A DNA stretch of 36,723 bases from Zetaproteobacteria bacterium CG06_land_8_20_14_3_00_59_53 (GTDB lineage Bacteria > Pseudomonadota > Zetaproteobacteria > Mariprofundales > Mariprofundaceae): positions 1 to 36,723 of the forward strand of contig PEWE01000031.1 in the NCBI GenBank assembly GCA_002779605.1, written 5' to 3'. Below the pieces are notes generated by a model, which was not told the origin of the DNA, ran no database searches, and saw nothing but the letters and a program-made list of their open reading frames with translations. A program made the translations under genes and the position numbers. Positions 7,722 through 19,805 of this stretch are shown here, piece by piece. The number at the start of each line of letters is the position of its first letter. The stretch's first letter is position 1.

Positions 7722-9002
7722 CTAGACGATCATACCTGCACCGACAGTGTTGTTGGTGAAGGTATCGATGACGATGAAACTGCCGGTGGTGCGATTCTCC
7801 GCATAGGCATCGTAGAACAAGGGCTTGAGCAGCTTGAAGGTGATCTGGCCGATCTCATTCATGGCAAGCTCGTCGGCTGATTCCTTGTCCAGGGTGTGAA
7901 TATCACGACGGAAATCGATGCTCTCGACCATCGCCTTGACGGTGCTGGTGGTATGCTTGATCAGGTATTTCTTGCGGCAGGACAAGGGTTCGGAGCCGAT
8001 CCAGCAGACATTGGCGACCAGTTGCTTGGTATCCGAAGGCTTGTCCGACGGGTGCACAAGCATATCGCCGCGTGAGATATCGATCTCGTCTTCCAGGGTC
8101 AAGGTGATGCTCTGTGGTGCGAATGCCTCCTGCAGATTGCCGTCGAAGGCGACGATCTCGCTGACCTTCGAGGCAAGCCCGGTGGATGCCACCACGACTT
8201 TATCACCGACCTTCACGGTGCCGGAGGCGATGGTGCCCATGAAACCGCGATAATCCGGCAGGTCGGGGGTCTGCGGACGATTGACCAGCTGCACTGGGAA
8301 ACGGAACGGTTTGCTGTCGATATTGTCCAGCGTCGGCAGGGTTTCCAGTGTTTCCAGCAGGGTTTTGCCTTCATACCAGCCGAGATGCTCGCCGCGCACA
8401 GCCACCATATCACCTTCCAGCGCCGACATCGGGATGCAGATCAGATCCTTCACACCCTGCTTCTCGCAATACGCCTGCATGTCGCTACGGATCTTCTCAT
8501 AAACAGCCTGATCAAAACCGACCAGATCCATCTTGTTGACCGCCACGATCAGATGTGGAATCCCCAGCAGTCCGAGAATGTGGGTATGGCGCTTGGTTTG
8601 TGGCATCACGCCACTGCGTGCATCGATCAGAATGATGGCAGCACTGGCGGTGGACGCACCGGTCACCATATTACGGGTGTACTGTTCATGCCCCGGACAG
8701 TCGGCCATGATGAACTTGCGCTTCGGGGTGGCGAAATAGCGGTAAGCGACATCGATGGTGATGCCCTGTTCGCGTTCGGCGGACAGACCGTCGGTCAGCA
8801 TGGCCAGATCGATCTCGGCGGCTGAAGCGATGTGCTCGGAGCCTTTCTGCTTGCGCACAGCCAGCAACTGGTCCTCGAAAGCACCCTTGGTGTCCACCAG
8901 CAGGCGTCCGATCAGGGTTGATTTACCATCATCCACACTGCCCACTGTCACCAGCCTGAGCAGCTCGATTTCTTTGGTCATTTTTACATTCAATTCAGAC
9001 AT
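7722..9002 (-). CDS. cysN: Sulfate adenylyltransferase subunit 1 CysN
   Basis: CysN is the GTPase subunit of ATP sulfurylase; GTP hydrolysis drives formation of APS from sulfate and ATP. The 426-residue protein has the P-loop GSVDDGKST, a DCPGHEQYTRNM G3 region, NKMD (G4) and the EF-Tu-like beta-barrel domains, with VNRPQTPDLPDYRGF typical of CysN. It lacks a C-terminal CysC (APS kinase) domain, in keeping with the APS-type reductase encoded upstream. I chose the ATG at 9002 because the family begins there; the upstream extension overlaps cysD and is rich in Arg and Ser. It is the last gene of the operon. Confidence 0.95.
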   Translation of the reverse strand: MSELNVKMTKEIELLRLVTVGSVDDGKSTLIGRLLVDTKGAFEDQLLAVRKQKGSEHIASAAEIDLAMLTDGLSAEREQGITIDVAYRYFATPKRKFIMADCPGHEQYTRNMVTGASTASAAIILIDARSGVMPQTKRHTHILGLLGIPHLIVAVNKMDLVGFDQAVYEKIRSDMQAYCEKQGVKDLICIPMSALEGDMVAVRGEHLGWYEGKTLLETLETLPTLDNIDSKPFRFPVQLVNRPQTPDLPDYRGFMGTIASGTVKVGDKVVVASTGLASKVSEIVAFDGNLQEAFAPQSITLTLEDEIDISRGDMLVHPSDKPSDTKQLVANVCWIGSEPLSCRKKYLIKHTTSTVKAMVESIDFRRDIHTLDKESADELAMNEIGQITFKLLKPLFYDAYAENRTTGSFIVIDTFTNNTVGAGMIV

Positions 9003-9018
9003 CGCTTTCCCCGCGGAC

Positions 9019-9927
9019 CTAGAAGTAGCCTTCTTTTTTCTTGTCTTCCATGCTGTTGGAGCCGTGATCGATGATGCGCGTCTCGCGCTCGGAGCGGCGT
9101 GCAGCCGCGGCCTCGATGACGATCTCATCCATATTCACGGCATCAGAACGCACAGCCCCCGTGCAGGGGCTGCAGCCCAGCGTGCGGAAGCGGCTCATCA
9201 CCATCTTCGGCTCCTCGCCTTCCAGCAGCTGATCCTTCATGTCTTCATAATACGGGATCAACATGTTCTTGCGCTCGACCATCGGACGCTCTTTGGCGAA
9301 ATACAGCGGAACGATCGGGATCTTCTCCTCGCGGATATACAGCCAGACATCCATCTCCGTCCAGTTGGAGATCGGGAACACGCGTACCGATTCACCTTCG
9401 TGGATGCGCCCGTTGTAGATGCTCCACAATTCGGGACGCTGGTTCTTCGGATCCCACTGGCCGAATTCGTCGCGCATCGAGAACACACGCTCTTTGGCGC
9501 GCGAACGCTCTTCGTCGCGGCGAGCACCACCGAAGGCTGCGTCGTACCCGCCCTCTTCCAGCGCATCGAGAAGACCCTGGGTCTTCAATGCGCCGCAGCA
9601 GCGGGCCACGCCGAAATCCTTCGGATTCATGCCCCTGGCGATGGCTTCCTCATTGCGACGCACGATCAGATCCGCACCGATCTCCTTGCAGAAGGAGTCG
9701 CGAAACTCGTACATCTCCTTGAACTTGTAACCGGTATCGACATGCAACAGCGGAAACGGAATCTTCGCCGGATAGAAGGCCTTGCGCGCCAGATGCAGCA
9801 GCACGCTGGAATCCTTGCCCACCGAATACAACATGACCGGATTGCGGAACTCGGCCACCACCTCGCGGATGATATGGATCGATTCGGCTTCCAGCGCCTT
9901 GAGCTGCGTCAGCTTGTGTTCGCTCAT
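9019..9927 (-). CDS. cysD: Sulfate adenylyltransferase subunit 2 CysD
   Basis: CysD is the catalytic subunit of ATP sulfurylase and partner of CysN. The 302-residue protein carries the PP-loop-type [49 protein letters not shown] and [10 protein letters not shown], all CysD hallmarks. It ends in the KKEGYF tail typical of the family. The ATG at 9927 has AAGGAG upstream; a start at 9960 would add a non-conserved lysine-rich extension. cysH ends ten bases before it. Confidence 0.95.
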
Positions 9928-9937
9928 CTTGTTCTCC

Positions 9938-10669
9938 TTAAATCCCTTCACCCTCTTCACCTGCCGGTTTTTCCAGAATCGGGCTGATCACATGCAGGCC
10001 GCATTCTGCCACCGACTCGTCGTTTTCCCACCACCAGCGACCGGCGCGGGCATCCTCGCCGACGGAGATCGCACGGGTGCAGCATTCGCATCCGATGGAG
10101 TGGTAGAAATGATCGTGAAGCTTGTTGTAGGGCACATCATTGGCACGGATGTAATCCCATATCTCTTCCCAGCTCCAGTCCAGCAGCGGATTGTATTTGG
10201 TAAGTCCGTACACGGGATCTCTTTCGACAGACTGCAGATCGCCGCGGCCCTCGGACTGCTCGCGCCGGCGACCCGTGATCCATGCCGTCTTGCCGTGCAG
10301 AACCCGGTTCAGTGGATTCACCTTGCGCACCTGACAGCAGAGCTTTCGTTCCTCGATCGAATGGCGGAACAAGTTCACGCCGTGGTCGCGGACCATCTGT
10401 TCCACTTCCCGGCAATCCGGAAACACGATCTGCACCTTCATGTCGTAGCGCTGCTCGACCTCGCTGATCACATCGTAGGTGGACTGCGGCAGGCGGCCTG
10501 TGTCCAGAGTCAGCACAGGGATCGGCAGATTGTTCCGCCCGATCATATCAATCAATACTGAGGCTTCGGCAGCGAAGCTGGATGGATAGATCAGACTACT
10601 CCCGTGCGTGGCGATCGCCCCGTTCAACAGGGCTAGAGCCGCTTCAATCTTGTTTCCGGACACATTCAC
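9938..10669 (-). CDS. cysH: Assimilatory APS reductase (CysH, iron-sulfur type)
   Basis: This enzyme reduces activated sulfate to sulfite with thiol electrons. The 243-residue protein has [18 protein letters not shown], a KYNPLLDW segment and the C-terminal ECGLH carrying the catalytic Cys. Two cysteine pairs, LCCQV and GCECC, mark the 4Fe-4S form that acts on APS; PAPS-specific enzymes lack them. This agrees with the absence of an APS kinase in the operon. The gene sits seven bases after the permease fusion. Confidence 0.92.
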
Positions 10670-10676
10670 TCCTTGC

Positions 10677-13331
10677 TCAACCGATACCGGCCACGGGCCA
10701 CCAGAAACGTGTCACCAGACCGAAAAGAACCAGCGTGGACAACATCAATAACAGGCCCATGCGCACCATGCGCCCGAGTTCGATGTATCCGGTACCGTAA
10801 ATCATCGCATTAGCCGGCGTACCCATAGGCAACGTGAACGCGAAGCCGGACACGATGCCGATGCCGAGTGCGATCGACACAGGATCCAGATGCGCGGTCC
10901 CGGCCATGGAGAGAGCCAGCGGCAACATAATGGCCACCGCAGCCGTGTTGCTGATCGCCTCAGTCAGCAGCAGGGTCATCAGGCCGAGCAGCAACAAGAG
11001 TCCCCAGCCGGAAAGGCCTGCCGGCCACAGCGCCTGTGCAATCCAGGCCGCGGCGCCGGTCATTTCCAGCGACTTGGCGATGGCAATCGCACCGCCGTAC
11101 ATGACGATCACACCCCAGTCGATTTGCGACTGCACTTCTTTCCATGCGGCAATGCGCAAAGCGAACATCAGTACCACGGCAAGCAGCGCGATAGCAGCCA
11201 GACCCAGGGTCTCACCGAACACCACCCAGCCGAACATGGTGCAAAGCATCAGTACCGCCATAAGGCGTGCCGACCACGAAGCCCGGCCGATCTCCAGCCG
11301 CTTCTGATCGATGCGCTGGATGGCTCCCTTCATGTCGATCGATGATACTTCCACAAAACTCAACAACAGCACTGCGGCCACCGACAGCATACCGAGCACA
11401 ATCGGGGCGGACGCCAGCGTCCAGTCGGTGAAGCTGAACACACTGCCGGTCGTCTCCTGCAGGATCGCCATGGCCAGCGGACCGCGAGCCCCGCCCAGCA
11501 GGGTCAGCACACCACCGATAATCGCGCCCCACGCCAGCGCAAAGAACAGGCCGGAGGTAAAAGAATGCCCGCGCGGCAGTTCCAGACCACGCACCACCGA
11601 CCACACGATGGGCAGCATCACGGCCACCACCGCATGCTCCGGCATGAAGCAGGCCATCAGTGCAGGCAGCAACAGCATGGTCAGCAACAGGCGGCGCGGG
11701 CTGGTTCCCATGCGATCAAGCACGGCCAGCGCCATCTGCTCGGACAAGCCGGAACGGATGATACCGGCAGCCAGCGCGAAGGCGCCGAGAATGAAGAACA
11801 CCGCCGGATTACCGAACAGGGAGTAGATATCCCCTGCCGGCAGTACGCCCAGCACAGGCAGCAGGGCCAGCCCGAGCATGGAGGTGACCGGCAGCGGCAG
11901 TAATTGGGTGATCCACAGAACCAGACACAGGCCGAATACCAGCAAGGCGCGCCAACCCGGTTCGCTCAGTCCTTCAGGAGAGGTTTGCAACATGGTCATC
12001 GCGGTCAATGCGAACAACAGCAGCAGGGCAAGGAGCGGAAAGCTGCGTCTGGCCACCAGCACGTGCATCGGGCGCTTGTCCATCGCGGGCGCTGAACCGA
12101 AAGCATCCTCACTGTCGACGGCTTCCGATTGATGCACCCGCAGATGGCGACGCAGCGCATCCAGCCAGCCATGCACCTTACGGCCCAGCGATGAGGCGGA
12201 GATACGTTCATGCAACATGGTTTCCTGACCGACCAGCGCTCCGCTTTCCATCGGCGTGAGTACTCGTCCCATATCGCGCAGCCTATGGCTGGGCAGCTGC
12301 GAAGCAGTGAGAAGTTCATACTGTTGCAGCAGCGCCTGCTCCACATCATCCAGACTAGGCAAATCGCAATCGGCCAGCGGTGTGCCGGGCAGAGGCCGGA
12401 AAGGAGTCAGCAAGGGTACAACACCGCATGCGATCAGCTTCTGCATGCCCTCGATGGTGGAAGACAGCGGTTCCAGTCCGACGATCAGATGGCTGACCAC
12501 AGAACCCGGCCTGAATACCGCCTGTGCGTGTTCCAGTGCCCTCCACACAGCCTGCTGTCCGCCTTCCTGTTGCTTGCCCGGACAAACCTCGGTAAAACGG
12601 ACTGCATCATTCACTTCCAGATTGCAGACAAAGATATCCAGTCCTGCTGCATACAGGTCGTCGATGACCTGCACATTGCGAGGGGCAACGGTTTCAAGCG
12701 CGATCTGCTGGTGCCCGAGATGCTTTCTCAGCAGAGCAATCACCGGAATCAGGCGGGACAAACCTGCATCATCTCCCGGCGATGCACCGTTGTAGAGATA
12801 GACGGTATCGATATCGCGCTCGGCAAGGGCGGCCCGAACCACCTCGACCAGTTCAAGCGGGTCGCGCATCGGCGGCTCGGCCTGGTTGAGCATCGAATCA
12901 TACTGGCAATAACCGCAAGCCATGCCCGGACGGGCAAAGAAACCGCAGCCCATCAGCGGATGCAGCATCAGCAACCTGTCGTGCAGCGAAGAAAAACTGC
13001 CCATGCGGGCGCCACTGCGGGTTTTCCTGCGATAATACTTGGGGGCCTCAAGCAGCTTGACCGGCTGCATCTCGCCACCGCAGTGCAGTTCCGCATTTCC
13101 ATCCACCATGCGCAGCGCAAAGCCGCTGGCCTCGGTGAACGGCTGACCGACGGGAACCGTGCAGAACTGACCGCTGGGCAGGCGCACATCGACCACCGAT
13201 TCCGCCGCATTGGCCTGCGCCACATAGCGCGAGGCATCCGGCAGGCCGTCGGGCAGAGCAAGGCCCCGGCTCACCAGAGCCAGCTTTGTACGCCCCGGGT
13301 TGGAGAACGGGTGCAGGTCGTCGGTTGTCAT
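10677..13331 (-). CDS. Radical SAM domain fused to DASS/SLC13 anion permease
   Basis: The single open frame encodes 884 residues. Residues 1-100 form an N-terminal region I do not recognise. Residues 100-345 look like a radical SAM TIM barrel, with YLYNGASPGDD, ALETVAPRNV and LLTPFRPLPGTPL, but the cysteines are spaced CX9CX2C (C129, C139, C142) rather than CX3CX2C. From residue about 430 a complete DASS/SLC13 transporter follows, with GNPAVFFILGAFALAAGII and a late SNTAAVAIMLP motif. The first SNT-type position reads PEHAVVAVMLP instead. Inside a sulfate-assimilation operon, the permease is the obvious candidate for sulfate uptake. The radical SAM substrate is unknown, and a regulatory or sensing role is only inference. 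Confidence 0.85.
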   Translation of the reverse strand: MTTDDLHPFSNPGRTKLALVSRGLALPDGLPDASRYVAQANAAESVVDVRLPSGQFCTVPVGQPFTEASGFALRMVDGNAELHCGGEMQPVKLLEAPKYYRRKTRSGARMGSFSSLHDRLLMLHPLMGCGFFARPGMACGYCQYDSMLNQAEPPMRDPLELVEVVRAALAERDIDTVYLYNGASPGDDAGLSRLIPVIALLRKHLGHQQIALETVAPRNVQVIDDLYAAGLDIFVCNLEVNDAVRFTEVCPGKQQEGGQQAVWRALEHAQAVFRPGSVVSHLIVGLEPLSSTIEGMQKLIACGVVPLLTPFRPLPGTPLADCDLPSLDDVEQALLQQYELLTASQLPSHRLRDMGRVLTPMESGALVGQETMLHERISASSLGRKVHGWLDALRRHLRVHQSEAVDSEDAFGSAPAMDKRPMHVLVARRSFPLLALLLLFALTAMTMLQTSPEGLSEPGWRALLVFGLCLVLWITQLLPLPVTSMLGLALLPVLGVLPAGDIYSLFGNPAVFFILGAFALAAGIIRSGLSEQMALAVLDRMGTSPRRLLLTMLLLPALMACFMPEHAVVAVMLPIVWSVVRGLELPRGHSFTSGLFFALAWGAIIGGVLTLLGGARGPLAMAILQETTGSVFSFTDWTLASAPIVLGMLSVAAVLLLSFVEVSSIDMKGAIQRIDQKRLEIGRASWSARLMAVLMLCTMFGWVVFGETLGLAAIALLAVVLMFALRIAAWKEVQSQIDWGVIVMYGGAIAIAKSLEMTGAAAWIAQALWPAGLSGWGLLLLLGLMTLLLTEAISNTAAVAIMLPLALSMAGTAHLDPVSIALGIGIVSGFAFTLPMGTPANAMIYGTGYIELGRMVRMGLLLMLSTLVLFGLVTRFWWPVAGIG

Positions 13332-13375: not shown

Positions 13376-15727
13376 TCAAATCGAACCGCTCTTCTCCACG
13401 CGGATCTTCCATTGGGTATCGGATATCCTGTCCTTGGCCAGAACGCGCTGGCCCTGCTCCTGCAGCGAAAGCGGCACATTCTCGATCGGAGCACCGTCAT
13501 CGAGGATCACATCCAGCAGGCTGCCGACCGGCATCGTGGTAAGCTTGATCTTGGTTTTCACAAAGTTCATCGGGCAGGCGACCCCGGATAGATCGAGCAG
13601 AACCACATCCGAAGAGGATGCTTCAGGCGCAGCCACTGCGGGCTCTTCCTTTGCAGCCTCATCCTGCTGCGGAACCGCTGCGAAACGTTTCTCGGCAAGA
13701 GCCAGCCAATCGCCCTGAACCTGTTTCAGTCTGGTGACACCGGAAGCCGGATCAGCCAGATCGATATTCATCAGCGCCGATTGCACGGCCTGGAAACCGC
13801 CCATGACCTCGGCATCACCTGCAGCATTCACCATCAGCAGGCCGAACACGCTATTGTCTTCTTCAGGCGCCTCACCGAAAGCCACCAGGAAGGCGCGCGC
13901 CGTGGAGATCGCCGAACGGCGCAGTGCCGTCAGCGCCTCGGCCCAGAACATCGCATCACTGTGCGCACGGGCAAGCAGCAATTCATACTCTGCCTCGGAG
14001 ATCAAGGCATCGGACATGGAAAGCACAGCACCGGCACACTCGCCCTTCTTGTTACCCTTGGTATTGAAGGCCTCGTTTTCGCTCCAGTCGTAGATCAGGC
14101 CCTCGATCTCACCCGGCTGACCGGCAAACGGAGCCAGCACTGCGTTGATCGCCTCCTGCCCGATGCGTGATGCCCAGTCATGCACGCTCTCGCCCTCTGC
14201 CCGCCCGTCCTTGTAGGCATGAAGCATGGCGATGCCAGCCTCGGGGGCGCGCTTGGCAGGCACTGGATCTGTGGCAAAGGCCAGCGGCTGTCCGGCTTTA
14301 CCGGAACCGCCGACATGCAGCTGGTAATGCGGCACAGCCTGTCCGTCGATCTTCTTGGCCAGACCGTGGAATCCGAGATCGGCAATATGGTGACGGGCAC
14401 ATGAATGCTGGCAGCCCGATGCTTTGACCGTGATCCCGGCCAGCGTCGCATCCTTTTTCAGATCGGCCATCATCGGCTGCAGGGCCTCGGCAAGTCCGCG
14501 ACTGGAGGTGATGCCCAGACGGCAGGTTTCCGTGCCCGGGCAGGCCACCACATCGGCGATGCCGCGTGCATATTCGGTGGTCAGCCCCGCAGCATTGAGA
14601 ACAGCCTGGGCTGCGGCCACCTTGTCCGCATCCACATCTGCAATCACCAGACCCTGTTCGGTCGTCACGCTCAGGCTATCGGTGCCGGCGGCACGCGCGG
14701 CATCGGCCACGGCATGACACTGCGCCGGGGTCAGATCGCCACGGAACAGGTTCAGCAGGATCGCCTGCTTGCCGTTGTGCTGCCCGACCACACCGGAATC
14801 GGAATGCGGCATCTCGCCGGTCGGCGTGCGCCAGTTCGCTTCGGGGTAACCGGTAGCACCGGCATGGGTCTTCTCGACCACGGCACGCTGCCTCCTGTAC
14901 TCCTCGATAAAGCCTTCCTCGCCCAGTTTCTGTGCCACATATTTCATGCGCGCACGGGCACGGCGTTTGCGATCGGAGAATTTGAAATGGATGCGCATCA
15001 GCGCCTCACCGACCAGCAGCAACTCGGACTCCGGAATGAACGCCTCCAGCAGCAATGCGCTCATCGGCTGAGAAGAAAGCCCGCCTGCCGCCCATACCTG
15101 AAAGCCCCTGATACCGTCCTGAACGGTGGCGATGAAGCCGATATCGTGCATGCCGGACAAGCCGCAATCCGTAGCACAGCCCGAGAATGTCACCTTGAAC
15201 TTACGCGGAAACTGCTGCGCCAGAGGGTGACGCAGGAAAAACTCGGCAAAGCGGCGTGCGTGTACCGACACATCGGCATGCTCAGCAGGGCAGCGGCCAG
15301 CCAGAAAGCATGAGGAAACATTGCGCACGGTGTTACCGCATGCCTCGCGCGTGGTCAGCCCTGCGGCATCCAGCCTGCGCAAAAAGGCGGGCACATCGTC
15401 CAGTGAAACGAAATTGGCCTGGATATCCTGACGCGTGGTCACATGGGCGAATTTATGCGGAGCCTCGATGAGCGTGCCGTCGGTCGGCATGCGACCGGCA
15501 TAATCAGCCACACAATCGCCGATCACATCCAGTTGATCCGGGGTCAGATTGCCGCCCGGCAGCTTGACGCGCACCATCTGCACGCCTTCCTGACGCTGGC
15601 CGTACACACCCATCTGCAGACGGAACGGCGTAAAGCGCTCTTCGGACATCCGGCCGGCACGGAAAGCCTTATAGCCCGCCTCGAACTCATCGACATCGGC
15701 AGTCCGTGTAAAATTAAATTCGCTCAT
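13376..15727 (-). CDS. Siroheme sulfite reductase fused to a TusA-like domain
   Basis: The 783-residue protein has a siroheme nitrite/sulfite reductase module up to about residue 560. In the second half, C396, C402, C439 and C443 give the CX5C...CX3C quartet of the siroheme-4Fe-4S centre. The first half has a matching quartet (C140, C146, C184, C188), which is not present in E. coli CysI. A helical region of about 120 residues follows that I cannot assign; it may be HEPN-like. The last 75 residues form a TusA-type carrier with SGVACPMNFVKTK, whose Cys would hold persulfide sulfur. In this operon sulfite, not nitrite, is the likely substrate. An AGAGG Shine-Dalgarno lies upstream of the ATG, just after a strong hairpin. 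Confidence 0.88.
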   Translation of the reverse strand: MSEFNFTRTADVDEFEAGYKAFRAGRMSEERFTPFRLQMGVYGQRQEGVQMVRVKLPGGNLTPDQLDVIGDCVADYAGRMPTDGTLIEAPHKFAHVTTRQDIQANFVSLDDVPAFLRRLDAAGLTTREACGNTVRNVSSCFLAGRCPAEHADVSVHARRFAEFFLRHPLAQQFPRKFKVTFSGCATDCGLSGMHDIGFIATVQDGIRGFQVWAAGGLSSQPMSALLLEAFIPESELLLVGEALMRIHFKFSDRKRRARARMKYVAQKLGEEGFIEEYRRQRAVVEKTHAGATGYPEANWRTPTGEMPHSDSGVVGQHNGKQAILLNLFRGDLTPAQCHAVADAARAAGTDSLSVTTEQGLVIADVDADKVAAAQAVLNAAGLTTEYARGIADVVACPGTETCRLGITSSRGLAEALQPMMADLKKDATLAGITVKASGCQHSCARHHIADLGFHGLAKKIDGQAVPHYQLHVGGSGKAGQPLAFATDPVPAKRAPEAGIAMLHAYKDGRAEGESVHDWASRIGQEAINAVLAPFAGQPGEIEGLIYDWSENEAFNTKGNKKGECAGAVLSMSDALISEAEYELLLARAHSDAMFWAEALTALRRSAISTARAFLVAFGEAPEEDNSVFGLLMVNAAGDAEVMGGFQAVQSALMNIDLADPASGVTRLKQVQGDWLALAEKRFAAVPQQDEAAKEEPAVAAPEASSSDVVLLDLSGVACPMNFVKTKIKLTTMPVGSLLDVILDDGAPIENVPLSLQEQGQRVLAKDRISDTQWKIRVEKSGSI

Positions 15728-15792: not shown

Positions 15793-16617
15793 TCAGCTGT
15801 GACCAATCTGCAGTTCGCAGGCCTGCTCATAGGTCACCAGTTCGGTAATGGTGGGATGTTCGCTGCACAGCGGGCAACCCGGATCCTTACGCAGCTTCAG
15901 CTTCTTCCACTCCATGCGCAGCGCATCGAAGGTCATCAGTCTGCCCGCCAGAGAATCGCCGATGCCCAGCAGTTCCTTGATGGCCTCCACGGCCTGGATG
16001 GTACCCACGGCACCAGCCAGCGCGCCGAGAATGCCGGCCTCGGAACAGGAAGGTACCAGCCCCTTCGGCGGCGGCTCCGGATACAGGCAGCGATAGCAGG
16101 GTGCATCCTTCTGTTGATGTGGCTTGAAGGTGGCCACCTGCCCTTCGAAACGGAACATCGCACCGGAGATCAGCGGTTTCTTCTCGAAGTAGCAGGCATC
16201 GTTGACCAGAAAGCGCGTCGGGAAGTTGTCGCAGCCATCGATGATCAGATCGTATTCACGGATGATCTCGCGGATATTGTCCTCGGTGACGAAGTAGTTG
16301 TAGGTGTTGACCTGCACATCCGGATTGAGCGCCTGAATCGTTTCACGCGCGCTCTCCACCTTAGGCATGCCGACACGGTCTTCGTTGTGGATGATCTGGC
16401 GCTGCAGATTGGATGAATCCACCACATCGGCATCGGCGATACCGATGGTCCCCACTCCGGCGGCTGCCAGATAATAGGCCACAGGCGAACCTAGTCCGCC
16501 GGCGCCGATCATGAACACCTTGGATTCTAGCAGCTTCGACTGCCCTTCCGCCCCGACCTCGGGAAGGATGATGTGGCGCGCATAGCGCTCGATTTGTTTC
16601 TCTGTAAAATCAATCAC
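15793..16617 (-). CDS. ThiF/MoeB/HesA-type E1-like adenylyltransferase
   Basis: The 274-residue enzyme would adenylate the C-terminal glycine of a ubiquitin-like sulfur carrier, most likely the ThiS/MoaD-like protein of the same operon. It has the nucleotide-binding IGAGGLGSP near residue 37, SSNLQRQI, the DNFPTR acidic motif and two CXXC zinc pairs (CYRC and CPLC). A Cys in VPSCSEAGILGA is in the position of the E1-type reactive Cys. No rhodanese domain is attached, so sulfur must come from another donor. Whether it serves cysteine, homocysteine, thiamin or molybdopterin synthesis cannot be told from this sequence alone; its operon favours the first two. Confidence 0.88.
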   Translation of the reverse strand: MIDFTEKQIERYARHIILPEVGAEGQSKLLESKVFMIGAGGLGSPVAYYLAAAGVGTIGIADADVVDSSNLQRQIIHNEDRVGMPKVESARETIQALNPDVQVNTYNYFVTEDNIREIIREYDLIIDGCDNFPTRFLVNDACYFEKKPLISGAMFRFEGQVATFKPHQQKDAPCYRCLYPEPPPKGLVPSCSEAGILGALAGAVGTIQAVEAIKELLGIGDSLAGRLMTFDALRMEWKKLKLRKDPGCPLCSEHPTITELVTYEQACELQIGHS

Positions 16618-16676: not shown

Positions 16677-17609
16677 TTATACCTCGATACCCTTGAACAG
16701 GTCGGTGGACATATAACGCTCGGCCATGGACGGGATGATCACCACGATACGCTTACCCTTCATCTCGGGACGGGCGGCCACACGCAGAGCGGCAGTCACC
16801 GCCGCACCGGAAGAGATACCACCGGCAATGCCCTCTTCATCGGAAAGACGGCGCGCCATCTGGATGGCCTCGTCGTTGGTCACCTGCTCGACACTATCGA
16901 TGATGTCCACGTTCAGGTTCTTCGGAATGAAGCCTGCACCGATACCCTGGATCTTGTGCGGTCCGGGCTGACCACCTGAAATCACCGGGGAATCGGCAGG
17001 TTCCACAGCAATCGCCTGGAACGCCGGATTGCGCGATTTGAGCACTTCGGCCACACCGGTGATGGTCCCGCCGGTGCCGACACCGGCGACAATCGCATCC
17101 ACCTTGCCGTCGGTATCGTTCCAGATTTCCTCGGCGGTCGTCTTGCGGTGGATCTCGGGATTCGCAGGATTCTCGAACTGCTGCGGCATGAAAGCATTGT
17201 CGGTGGCGGCGGCGATTTCGTTGGCGCGCGCGATCGCGCCCTTCATTCCCTTCTCCGCCGGGGTCAGCACAAGCTCGGCTCCAAGCAGTTTCAACAGCTT
17301 ACGACGCTCAAGACTCATGGATTCCGGCATGGTCAGGATACAACGATAACCACGTGCACGCGCCACAAAGGCCAGCGCGATGCCGGTGTTGCCACTGGTC
17401 GGCTCGACAATCACGCCGCCCGGCTTGAGTACGCCATCCGCCTCGGCCGCATCCACCATAGCCCGACCGATACGGTCTTTGACCGAATTCAGCGGATTGA
17501 AGAACTCGAGCTTGAGCAGCAGCTCGGCATCCAGCCCGGCAGCAATTCGTTGCAGCCTGACAAGCGGGGTGTCGCCAACGGTTTCAGTGATATTGTTGTA
17601 TATTGCCAT
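16677..17609 (-). CDS. cysK: Cysteine synthase CysK
   Basis: CysK is a PLP enzyme that makes cysteine from O-acetylserine and sulfide. The 310-residue protein has the PLP lysine at K44 (NSVKDRIG), [11 protein letters not shown] for the substrate, [10 protein letters not shown] for the cofactor phosphate, and GGISSGAAV near the end, all standard. I chose the ATG at 17609 because GAGGTG lies upstream and the MAIYNNITE start is family-like. A CysM-type use of a carrier thiocarboxylate as sulfur donor is possible given the neighbours. cysE is not in the window. Confidence 0.92.
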
Positions 17610-17695
17610 TTCACACCTCATGAATCGTTTTATGCTTTAATAAACAATGCATCAACTGTACTTTGCAGGCAAACAGCATGCTTTGTCAGCCTGTT

Positions 17696-17935
17696 TCAAC
17701 CCTCGATGATATTCTGTTCGATCGGGTCGACATGCACGCCCTGCTCCTGCAGCCACTGCAGAGCCGCCTCGACCACGGCGGTCTTGCCTTCCAGTTCCAG
17801 GCCGACCAGTCCCATATGCTCGCGCACCTCGGCGGTGCGGATATTGGTGATCACATCGAATTCCCTGCTCAGTTTCCAGATCAGCGGCTCGCGCACCGTC
17901 TGCTCGGAAAAGGTCAGATAGACGCGCTGTTTCAT
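17696..17935 (-). CDS. Free-standing NIL domain protein
   Basis: This 79-residue protein consists of little more than a NIL domain (ACT-like fold): MKQRVYLTFSEQTVREPLIW, then EFDVITNIRTAEVREHMGLVGLELEG and QWLQEQGVHVDPI. The NIL domain at the end of the methionine importer MetN binds methionine. NIL domains fused to ferredoxins are tied to homocysteine synthesis in anaerobes. Here it is alone, five bases after the thiS-like gene, in a SAM-riboswitch operon. A methionine-sensing or scaffold role is inference. Confidence 0.85.
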   Translation of the reverse strand: MKQRVYLTFSEQTVREPLIWKLSREFDVITNIRTAEVREHMGLVGLELEGKTAVVEAALQWLQEQGVHVDPIEQNIIEG

Positions 17936-17940
17936 GCGCC

Positions 17941-18222
17941 TTACATCCTGCCGCCGGCAATGGCCGGCACGATGGAAACTTCGTCACCGTCTTTCAGTGC
18001 TGTGGCGCGACCATCAAGAAAACGCACATCTTCATCGTTTACATACACATTGACGAAACGGCGGATTTCGCCCTTCTCGTCGCATAAACGATCTTTCAGG
18101 CCGGCATGTGCAGCTTCCAGATTATCAATCAGCTGACCGATATTGGCCGCTTCTACATTCACCTCATCGGCACCGTTCGTCAGTTTGCGCAGCGGTGTCG
18201 GAATACGTACGGATACACTCAT
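17941..18222 (-). CDS. ThiS/MoaD-like ubiquitin-fold sulfur carrier
   Basis: The 93-residue protein has the beta-grasp pattern of MoaD/CysO carriers: [17 protein letters not shown] at the start, [15 protein letters not shown] in the middle, and [16 protein letters not shown] near the end. Such carriers bear sulfur as a thiocarboxylate on the last glycine after activation by an E1-like enzyme. This one ends GGRM, so two residues would have to be removed first. The AGGA in those last codons also serves as a possible ribosome site for the NIL gene. A good AGGAG precedes the ATG. Confidence 0.88.
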
Positions 18223-18263: not shown

Positions 18264-19514
18264 TCAGCTGTTTTGCACACCGTCAGCCTGAGCCAAGGCA
18301 TCAAATTCTTTCAAGCTGGCATCGATAATCCGCGGTTTGGCAAACGCGTCAATCACAGCCTCCTGTGTCTTCAAACCGTTGCCGGTAATGCACAGCACAA
18401 TGGACTCATCACGCGGCAGACGACCGGACTCAATCATTTTCCTTGCGCAGCCCAATGTAACACCACCGGCAGTCTCCGCGAAGATACCTTCTGTCTCTGC
18501 CAACTGCTTCATCGCATCAACCACTTCCTCATCTGTGATGTCTTCAGCCCAGCCGCCTGATTCGCGAATCACGCGATTGGCATAATAGCCGTCTGCCGGA
18601 TTCCCAATGGCCAAAGACTTGGCAATCGTATCGGCAATCACCGGATGGATCAGATCGGTACCTTCCTTCACCGATCTGGAAATCGGCGAACAACCTGTGG
18701 CCTGTGCACCATACACGGCCGTACCGTTGTCCTCGATCAGCCCCAGCTTGATGAATTCCTTGATGGACTTGTCGATCTTGGTGCACAGCGAACCGGAGGC
18801 CATCGGCACGACGATATGCTTCGGCGCCTTCCAGCCCAGCTGTTCCATGACTTCATAACCCAGCGACTTGGAGCCCTCGGCGTAAAACGGGCGCACATTG
18901 ACGTTCACAAAGGCCCAGCCGTATTTACCGGCCACCTCGGAGCACAGGCGGTTCACATCATCATATTTGCCGCGGATGCCGATGATCCTGGTGCCGAAGA
19001 TTCCGGCACCGAGCACCTTGCCCTGCTCCAGATCGTGCGGGATGAAAACATAGGATTCCAGACCGGCTGCAGCCGCATTGGCAGCCACGGAGCCAGCAAG
19101 ATTGCCGGTGGAGGCGCAGGCCACGGTGGTGAAACCGAACTCCACAGCCTTGGACAGCGCCACGGACACCACGCGGTCCTTGAAGGACAGCGTCGGGTAG
19201 CACACCGAATCATTCTTGATATACAGCTCGGAAACGCCCAGCACCTTTTCAAGGTTACGTGCACGCACCAGCGGCGTGTAGCCGTTCTGGGCACCCACCG
19301 TCGGCTCGCCATCGATCGGCAGCAGTTCCTTGTAGCGCCACATGGTCTGCGGACGAGACTCGATCAGCTCGCGGGTGAATTTCCCTTTCAGCTTGTCGTA
19401 GTCGTAGGCCACTTCCAGCGGTCCGAAGCAGTATTCGCAGACATGCGTCGGCTCGATCGGGTATTCCTGACCGCATTCGCGGCACTTCAGGGCGCGCACA
19501 ATACTTTTACTCAT
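18264..19514 (-). CDS. thrC: Threonine synthase-like PLP enzyme with zinc ribbon
   Basis: The 416-residue protein is by family a threonine synthase, which makes threonine from O-phosphohomoserine. It has an N-terminal zinc ribbon (C11, C14, C26, C29), the PLP lysine in [28 protein letters not shown], and CITGNGLKT for the cofactor. The ATG at 19514 has GGAG nine bases upstream; a start at 19571 would fall in the riboswitch terminator. It is the first gene of an operon controlled by a SAM riboswitch and precedes a thiS-like carrier gene. It might therefore be a paralogue that adds sulfur to O-phosphohomoserine to make homocysteine. That is inference; simple threonine synthesis is the default. 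Confidence 0.9.
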
Positions 19515-19569
19515 CAAATCAGCTCCATGGCCGGCATGATTCAACAGCAAACACCCGGTGGCGGGGCAC

Positions 19570-19599
19570 AAAAAAACCCCGCCTGGATAAAGCGAGGTT
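19570..19599 (-). terminator. Intrinsic terminator of the SAM riboswitch
   Basis: On the minus strand, CCTCGC (19597-19592) pairs with GCGGGG (19582-19577) and is followed by seven T. The heptamer CTTTATC (19592-19586), at the base of the stem and in its loop, is identical to the 5' strand of the aptamer's P1. The P1 3' strand could therefore pair here instead and open the terminator. Confidence 0.88.
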
Positions 19600-19635
19600 G
19601 CAGGTGCGGCAGAACCGCAGACGTCGACAACCGCT

Positions 19636-19783
19636 CCTTATCGCTCTCCCCCGTTGTTAATTAAAACATCGGAGAAGCAGGCATTGGCACCAGTCGCCGC
19701 AAGAGGAGTCCGATCGGAATCACAATCTTGGCCGGTTGCCGCAGTTTCACAGGGCCTGAAACCCTCCACTGCTCTTGATAAAG
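19636..19783 (-). ncRNA. SAM-I (S-box) riboswitch aptamer
   Basis: Read on the minus strand, the leader shows the S-box core in order: ATCAAGAG, GTGGAGGG, GGCCCTGTGAAA, CGGCAACC, then GGTGCCAAT and CCTGC, a P4 hairpin, and GCGATAAGG closing P1. P1 pairs CTTTATC (19783-19777) with GATAAGG (19642-19636). A terminator lies downstream at 19570-19599, before the thrC-like start. With SAM bound, P1 forms and the terminator can fold; without SAM, the P1 3' strand can pair with the second CTTTATC copy. It should thus repress the whole sulfur operon when SAM is plentiful. Confidence 0.93.
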
Positions 19784-19805
19784 CCGGATAAATTTTCGAG
19801 GCCGA

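Follow-up and report, generated by a model that had tools for sequence, protein, structure and literature searches.

A class-wide fusion of a CX9CX2C-variant radical-SAM domain and a DASS-type transporter in the sulfate-assimilation operon of Zetaproteobacteria

Radical SAM enzymes are, in general terms, recognised by a partial TIM barrel and a CX3CX2C cysteine motif, and members of the superfamily without that motif are already known. A variant lineage of this kind is represented by the MSMEG_0568/NitD proteins (TIGR04043), whose cysteines are spaced CX9CX2C (TCIRY...SCQFC) and which belong to nitrilase-cyanide (Nit1C) clusters, and the variant_rSAM model NF045502 is a domain model with no function attached. 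In the nit1C cyanide/nitrile cluster, the gene bears the name NitD and its product the annotation of a protein with a radical-SAM domain (PMC6368324); the literature search turned up no reaction ascribed to it. On the transport side, the DASS/SLC13 family is characterised by two SNT motifs, which in VcINDY bind the substrate and contribute to the Na+ sites, and basic side chains have been reported in place of the Na+ ions in DASS exchangers (PMC7553777). As for the sulfur chemistry, the mycobacterial CysO/CysM/MoeZ/Mec+ route offers the closest comparison, and it comprises neither a radical-SAM (rSAM) enzyme nor a DASS permease.

The window (the whole stretch of 36,723 nucleotides analysed here, from Zetaproteobacteria bacterium CG06_land_8_20_14_3_00_59_53) contains, at 10677-13331 on the minus strand, as are all its features given below, one uninterrupted open frame of 884 codons. 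Its 884-aa product is shown by profile matches and predicted structure to be a two-domain membrane protein, with a CX9CX2C-variant rSAM domain (residues 1-400; 12132-13331), a flexible linker (residues 401-421; 12069-12131) and a divalent-anion transporter of the SLC13/DASS type (residues 422-884; 10680-12068). The presence of a radical-SAM enzyme and a permease in a single frame, proposed in a preliminary description of this DNA, is hence confirmed. The linker is the least conserved part of the protein, and the whole-chain AlphaFold model has two well-formed domains, an overall pTM of 0.56 and a very low-confidence linker at 400-417 (pLDDT below 50); given this disorder and this pTM, no fixed contact between the rSAM and DASS domains is predicted. 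Both halves are under strong purifying selection, with dN/dS values against the nearest relative of 0.08 (rSAM) and 0.11 (DASS). A literature search found no paper on an rSAM/transporter fusion or on CX9CX2C radical-SAM proteins, and the architecture is apparently undescribed: what is new is the combination, since both halves are of known families and the variant family is itself already known.

The N-terminal half reaches 167-170 bits against NF045502 (cut-off 125) over most of the model in the NCBIfam profile search, and all 20 of the 20 aligned class members match it as well. Other models score below their cut-offs, namely Pfam Radical_SAM (26.8 bits, slightly under the 29.5 required), TIGR04043 of the MSMEG_0568 family (88 bits; cut-off 303.7) and the LipS2 lipoyl synthase model (24-26 bits; cut-off 270). 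No solved homologue of this half was found by sequence search. In its AlphaFold model, computed from the alignment of 20 relatives with a pLDDT of 88 and a pTM of 0.89, the radical-SAM barrel is preceded by a small N-terminal part rich in beta structure. Among solved structures, the top Foldseek matches are HydE (3ciw, E=1e-8), LipA (lipoyl synthase), BioB (biotin synthase), PylB and MoaA. The model and its matches, all of them radical-SAM enzymes, agree in a partial TIM barrel and support the radical-SAM fold put forward in the preliminary description. A chance motif was considered as well, and rejected on the profile-model and Foldseek matches.

In place of CX3CX2C, the domain carries its predicted cluster cysteines as C129-X9-C139-X2-C142 (12906-12947), exactly the spacing first noticed. 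None of the three varies among the 20 aligned relatives, and the loci compared show an identical motif. As CX9CX2C is also the spacing of MSMEG_0568/NitD, the odd motif marks a known variant lineage that is detectable by profile search; the expectation that a motif search would miss the protein holds for a strict CX3CX2C search, but not in practice, with NF045502 and TIGR04043 both matching it. The rSAM half can be aligned along its whole length with the NitD-type proteins, at about 25% identity. Unlike them, the rSAM half lacks the C-terminal GCGxCGACS cysteines, is fused to a transporter and, in the window and its class relatives, is encoded in a sulfate-assimilation operon instead of a nitrilase-cyanide cluster. 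Relatives retain K253 and the NLE-like and G-L-E motifs of the barrel, most of which are common to NitD-type proteins as well. After beta-2, YNG stands at the place of the glycine-rich GGE motif, which counts against the reading preferred below. Judging from its intact catalytic residues, the rSAM half looks like an enzyme and not a sensor. A distant rSAM relative with the CX3CX2C motif is encoded at L056:7542-8621(-), among non-sulfur genes of a different Pseudomonadota genome.

Could the domain nonetheless bind SAM without turnover and gate the permease? The union of a SAM-binding fold with an importer, controlled by a SAM riboswitch, is what such a sensor would look like, but the conservation of the catalytic residues makes a pure SAM-sensor role unlikely, and the strong purifying selection on a domain that keeps its catalytic cysteines and barrel motifs, the disordered linker with no fixed domain contact (whole-chain pTM only 0.56) and the existence of seven genomes with the halves as separate genes speak against it too, so that we regard this possibility as highly improbable. 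The coupling between SAM and uptake suggested in the preliminary description loses its footing on the same flexible linker, separate genes and retained motifs. A membrane unit in which radical chemistry is directly coupled to transport, either converting the imported sulfur anion or gating it by SAM, seems to us improbable.

The C-terminal half is a complete SLC13 transporter, as had been proposed: it scores 243 bits against the DASS model TIGR00785 (cut-off 198.6) and far above cut-off against PF00939 and PF03600, it is related to VcINDY by sequence (E=8e-39) and by structure (Foldseek TMt 0.88), and the Foldseek matches to this half of the whole-chain model are NaCT, NaS1 and VcINDY. With VcINDY and NaS1 it shares the complete fold, a family-model score above cut-off and the second SN motif, whereas it differs from them in its N-terminal radical-SAM domain and in having PEH (residues 564-566; 11634-11642) for the first SNT. 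This PEH, part of the PEHA at 564-567 to which the preliminary description had already drawn attention, takes the position of VcINDY's first SNT in the alignment and is found in every aligned class member covering the site, which leaves these proteins without the pair of SNT motifs of DASS/SLC13. At the second motif (SNT, residues 794-796; 10944-10952), the S and the N are kept in all aligned relatives covering the site, and the third residue is A, T or S. The PEH-type site is a subtype and not unique, since 3 of 23 DASS proteins of another class have GEHT at the first-SNT position. With PEH at that site, the substrate and the coupling ion may differ from those of VcINDY, and its histidine might stand in for Na+ as the basic side chains of DASS exchangers do. 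Furthermore, permeases of the SulP family are also present in Zetaproteobacteria, so that sulfate import need not depend on the DASS domain, or not on it alone. In the window's genome, a SulP-family permease is found in two pieces (G000:C14:11183-11851 and G000:C15:6890-7282), and another genome has one in two overlapping frames (G104:C4:339560-340607). The GEHT-bearing DASS proteins include two of other Pseudomonadota (L171:6101-8656(-) and L173:6235-8797(-)), beside whose genes a similar protein of ~335 aa (...FRILVCIDGTDASYEGL...) is encoded in both cases.

The distribution of the fusion was determined by scanning 84,980 species with two class-specific peptides, so that a distant relative outside the class could be missed, and 66 loci were retrieved. 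All but two are titled as Zetaproteobacteria, among them Mariprofundus (M. ferrooxydans PV-1 included), Ghiorsea and others; the two exceptions bear no more than the title “proteobacterium” and sit within the same tree as the Zetaproteobacteria. In a sample of 398 Pseudomonadota genomes, no close relatives turned up outside the family and order of the window, and the Pseudomonadota samples otherwise gave only MSMEG_0568/NitD-like proteins and the one CX3CX2C relative. The family search thus returned the same fusion in 57 of the 64 classifiable Zetaproteobacteria, the seven others having two adjacent genes: the fusion is real and class-wide, and apparently confined to Zetaproteobacteria. The preliminary description had itself raised the possibility of two genes joined by a sequencing error. 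Such a sequencing or assembly artefact is rejected, its probability being negligible, because the same single frame is conserved in 57 species from independent assemblies, isolates included (M. ferrooxydans PV-1, M. erugo, M. micogutta and strain EBB-1), and the seven two-gene genomes show clean stop and start codons.

In the split genomes, the rSAM gene ends and the permease gene begins in the linker region. Six of the seven have a permease start at -3 to +3 nt relative to the rSAM stop, and in the remaining one (L109) the gap measures 270 nt. In one split genome (L122:3606-5230), the rSAM part is itself in two frames, possibly because the metagenome bin was misassembled. The tree of fused and split forms, unrooted since the branches to NitD as outgroup are saturated, implies at least two switches of state. 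The fusion might have arisen, or been lost, when a stop codon changed between neighbouring genes whose translation was probably coupled. As seven genomes keep neighbouring separate genes, it is not essential, and it would merely set the stoichiometry and the place of the two halves.

The gene belongs to a long operon that begins with a SAM-I riboswitch (19635-19784; RF00162, 64.7 bits). The search of the genome gave no second one, and downstream of the aptamer lies a terminator-like hairpin with a T tail (19575-19599). The riboswitch control described earlier is therefore upheld, and it extends to the 8 of 8 relatives tested, in which the element lies upstream of the same first gene. From there, the order is as follows: a threonine-synthase-like (ThrC-like) PLP enzyme (18264-19571; TIGR00260, about 261 bits), the true start of which is probably at MSKSIVRAL; a ThiS/MoaD/CysO-like sulfur carrier of 93 aa ending in ...IAGGRM (17941-18222; PF02597, 62 bits), which also matches NF041918 (60.4 bits, cut-off 60); a NIL-domain protein of 79 aa (17696-17935; PF09383, 54 bits), conserved in the class like the carrier; the cysteine synthase CysK (16677-17621; TIGR01139, 465 bits); a MoeB/ThiF-type adenylyltransferase (15793-16617; PF00899, 286 bits); a siroheme sulfite reductase fused to a TusA domain, SiR-TusA (13376-15727; PF01077, PF03460 and PF01206); the rSAM-DASS gene; the APS/PAPS reductase CysH (9938-10669; TIGR02055, 242 bits); CysD (9019-9960; TIGR02039, 454 bits); and CysN (7722-9128; TIGR02034, 550 bits). 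The preliminary description was right in calling this a sulfate-assimilation operon, although it overlooked the carrier and the NIL genes.

The neighbours are not equally constant. SiR-TusA lies upstream of the rSAM gene in 56 of the 56 loci with enough sequence (at most 57 nt away in 51), and CysH adjoins the permease downstream in 42 of 57, so that the most stable unit is formed by SiR-TusA, rSAM and permease. Where the locus lacks CysH or CysD, genes of the PAPS-reductase family were found elsewhere in the genome in most of the cases tested, which identifies these genomes as sulfate assimilators. An additional free-standing TusA gene is encoded between CysH and CysD in four loci (L040:6618-6848, L044:5803-6060, L045:12773-13000 and L051:12811-13062).

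What, then, would the two halves do together? The reading that we prefer, and to which we give an even chance, is that of a catalytic cytosolic rSAM domain tethered to a sulfate-type importer and serving the sulfite-reductase/sulfur-carrier branch; it is chosen on the family and fold of the rSAM half, its conserved motifs and purifying selection, the family and fold of the transporter, the SiR-TusA neighbour, the adjacency of the split genes, the riboswitch and the evidence that genomes whose locus lacks CysH or CysD assimilate sulfate all the same. According to the mechanism of SAM-I riboswitches, low SAM would permit transcription of the operon, and at low levels of SAM and methionine the transporter half would bring in sulfate or another divalent sulfur anion like it. 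Since the N terminus of DASS proteins is cytosolic, the rSAM half is placed in the cytosol, where it may cleave SAM in the service of this sulfur pathway, with a step in the branch of sulfite reductase, TusA and CysO-like carrier being the most likely. Against this proposal stand the PEH site and the SulP permeases mentioned above; moreover, the textbook route from sulfate to cysteine requires, to our knowledge, no radical step.

The constancy of SiR-TusA, compared with the more variable CysH, can also be read in favour of a maturation enzyme, in which the rSAM half would modify, or load a cofactor on, SiR-TusA, the carrier or the permease, and be fused merely for co-expression. Maturases and sulfur-inserting enzymes (HydE, LipA and BioB) are indeed among its closest solved folds, but a similar fold within the rSAM superfamily tells little about the substrate, and the assimilatory sulfite reductases that we know of elsewhere work without such an enzyme; we consider this role rather unlikely. 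The same core of permease, rSAM and sulfite reductase, with CysH and CysDN sometimes elsewhere and a PEH that suggests an altered substrate site, might instead import an organosulfur anion (e.g., a sulfonate) from which the rSAM half frees sulfite for SiR-TusA to reduce. However, the operon usually contains CysH, CysD and CysN too, as sulfate use predicts, and we know of no sulfonate-cleaving radical-SAM enzyme, which makes this a long shot. In the preferred reading of a tethered rSAM enzyme, a fusion conserved across a class of marine iron-oxidising bacteria, cultivated M. ferrooxydans among them, points to an unrecognised radical step in their sulfur assimilation, connected with the uptake of sulfate or the reduction of sulfite, and SiR-TusA, the CysO-like carrier and the SAM riboswitch provide a genetic setting in which the function of the CX9CX2C radical-SAM lineage could be probed.

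The first genes of the operon recall the mycobacterial route in having a CysO/ThiS-like carrier, a MoeB-type activator and CysK, and differ from it in that the sulfite reductase is here fused to TusA. A JAMM-domain protein is encoded elsewhere in the genome (L135:6533-7075). The combination of the carrier (CysO/ThiS/SAMP1-like, with an end of IAGG plus 0-2 residues), NIL, MoeB, CysK and JAMM suggests protein-thiocarboxylate cysteine synthesis in Zetaproteobacteria. The riboswitch-led ThrC-like copy may act on another substrate, for instance phosphohomoserine or phosphoserine together with a sulfur carrier. A second ThrC of the window's genome (G000:C9:31234-32193) scores higher than the operon copy (304 vs 262 bits), to which it is 34% identical.
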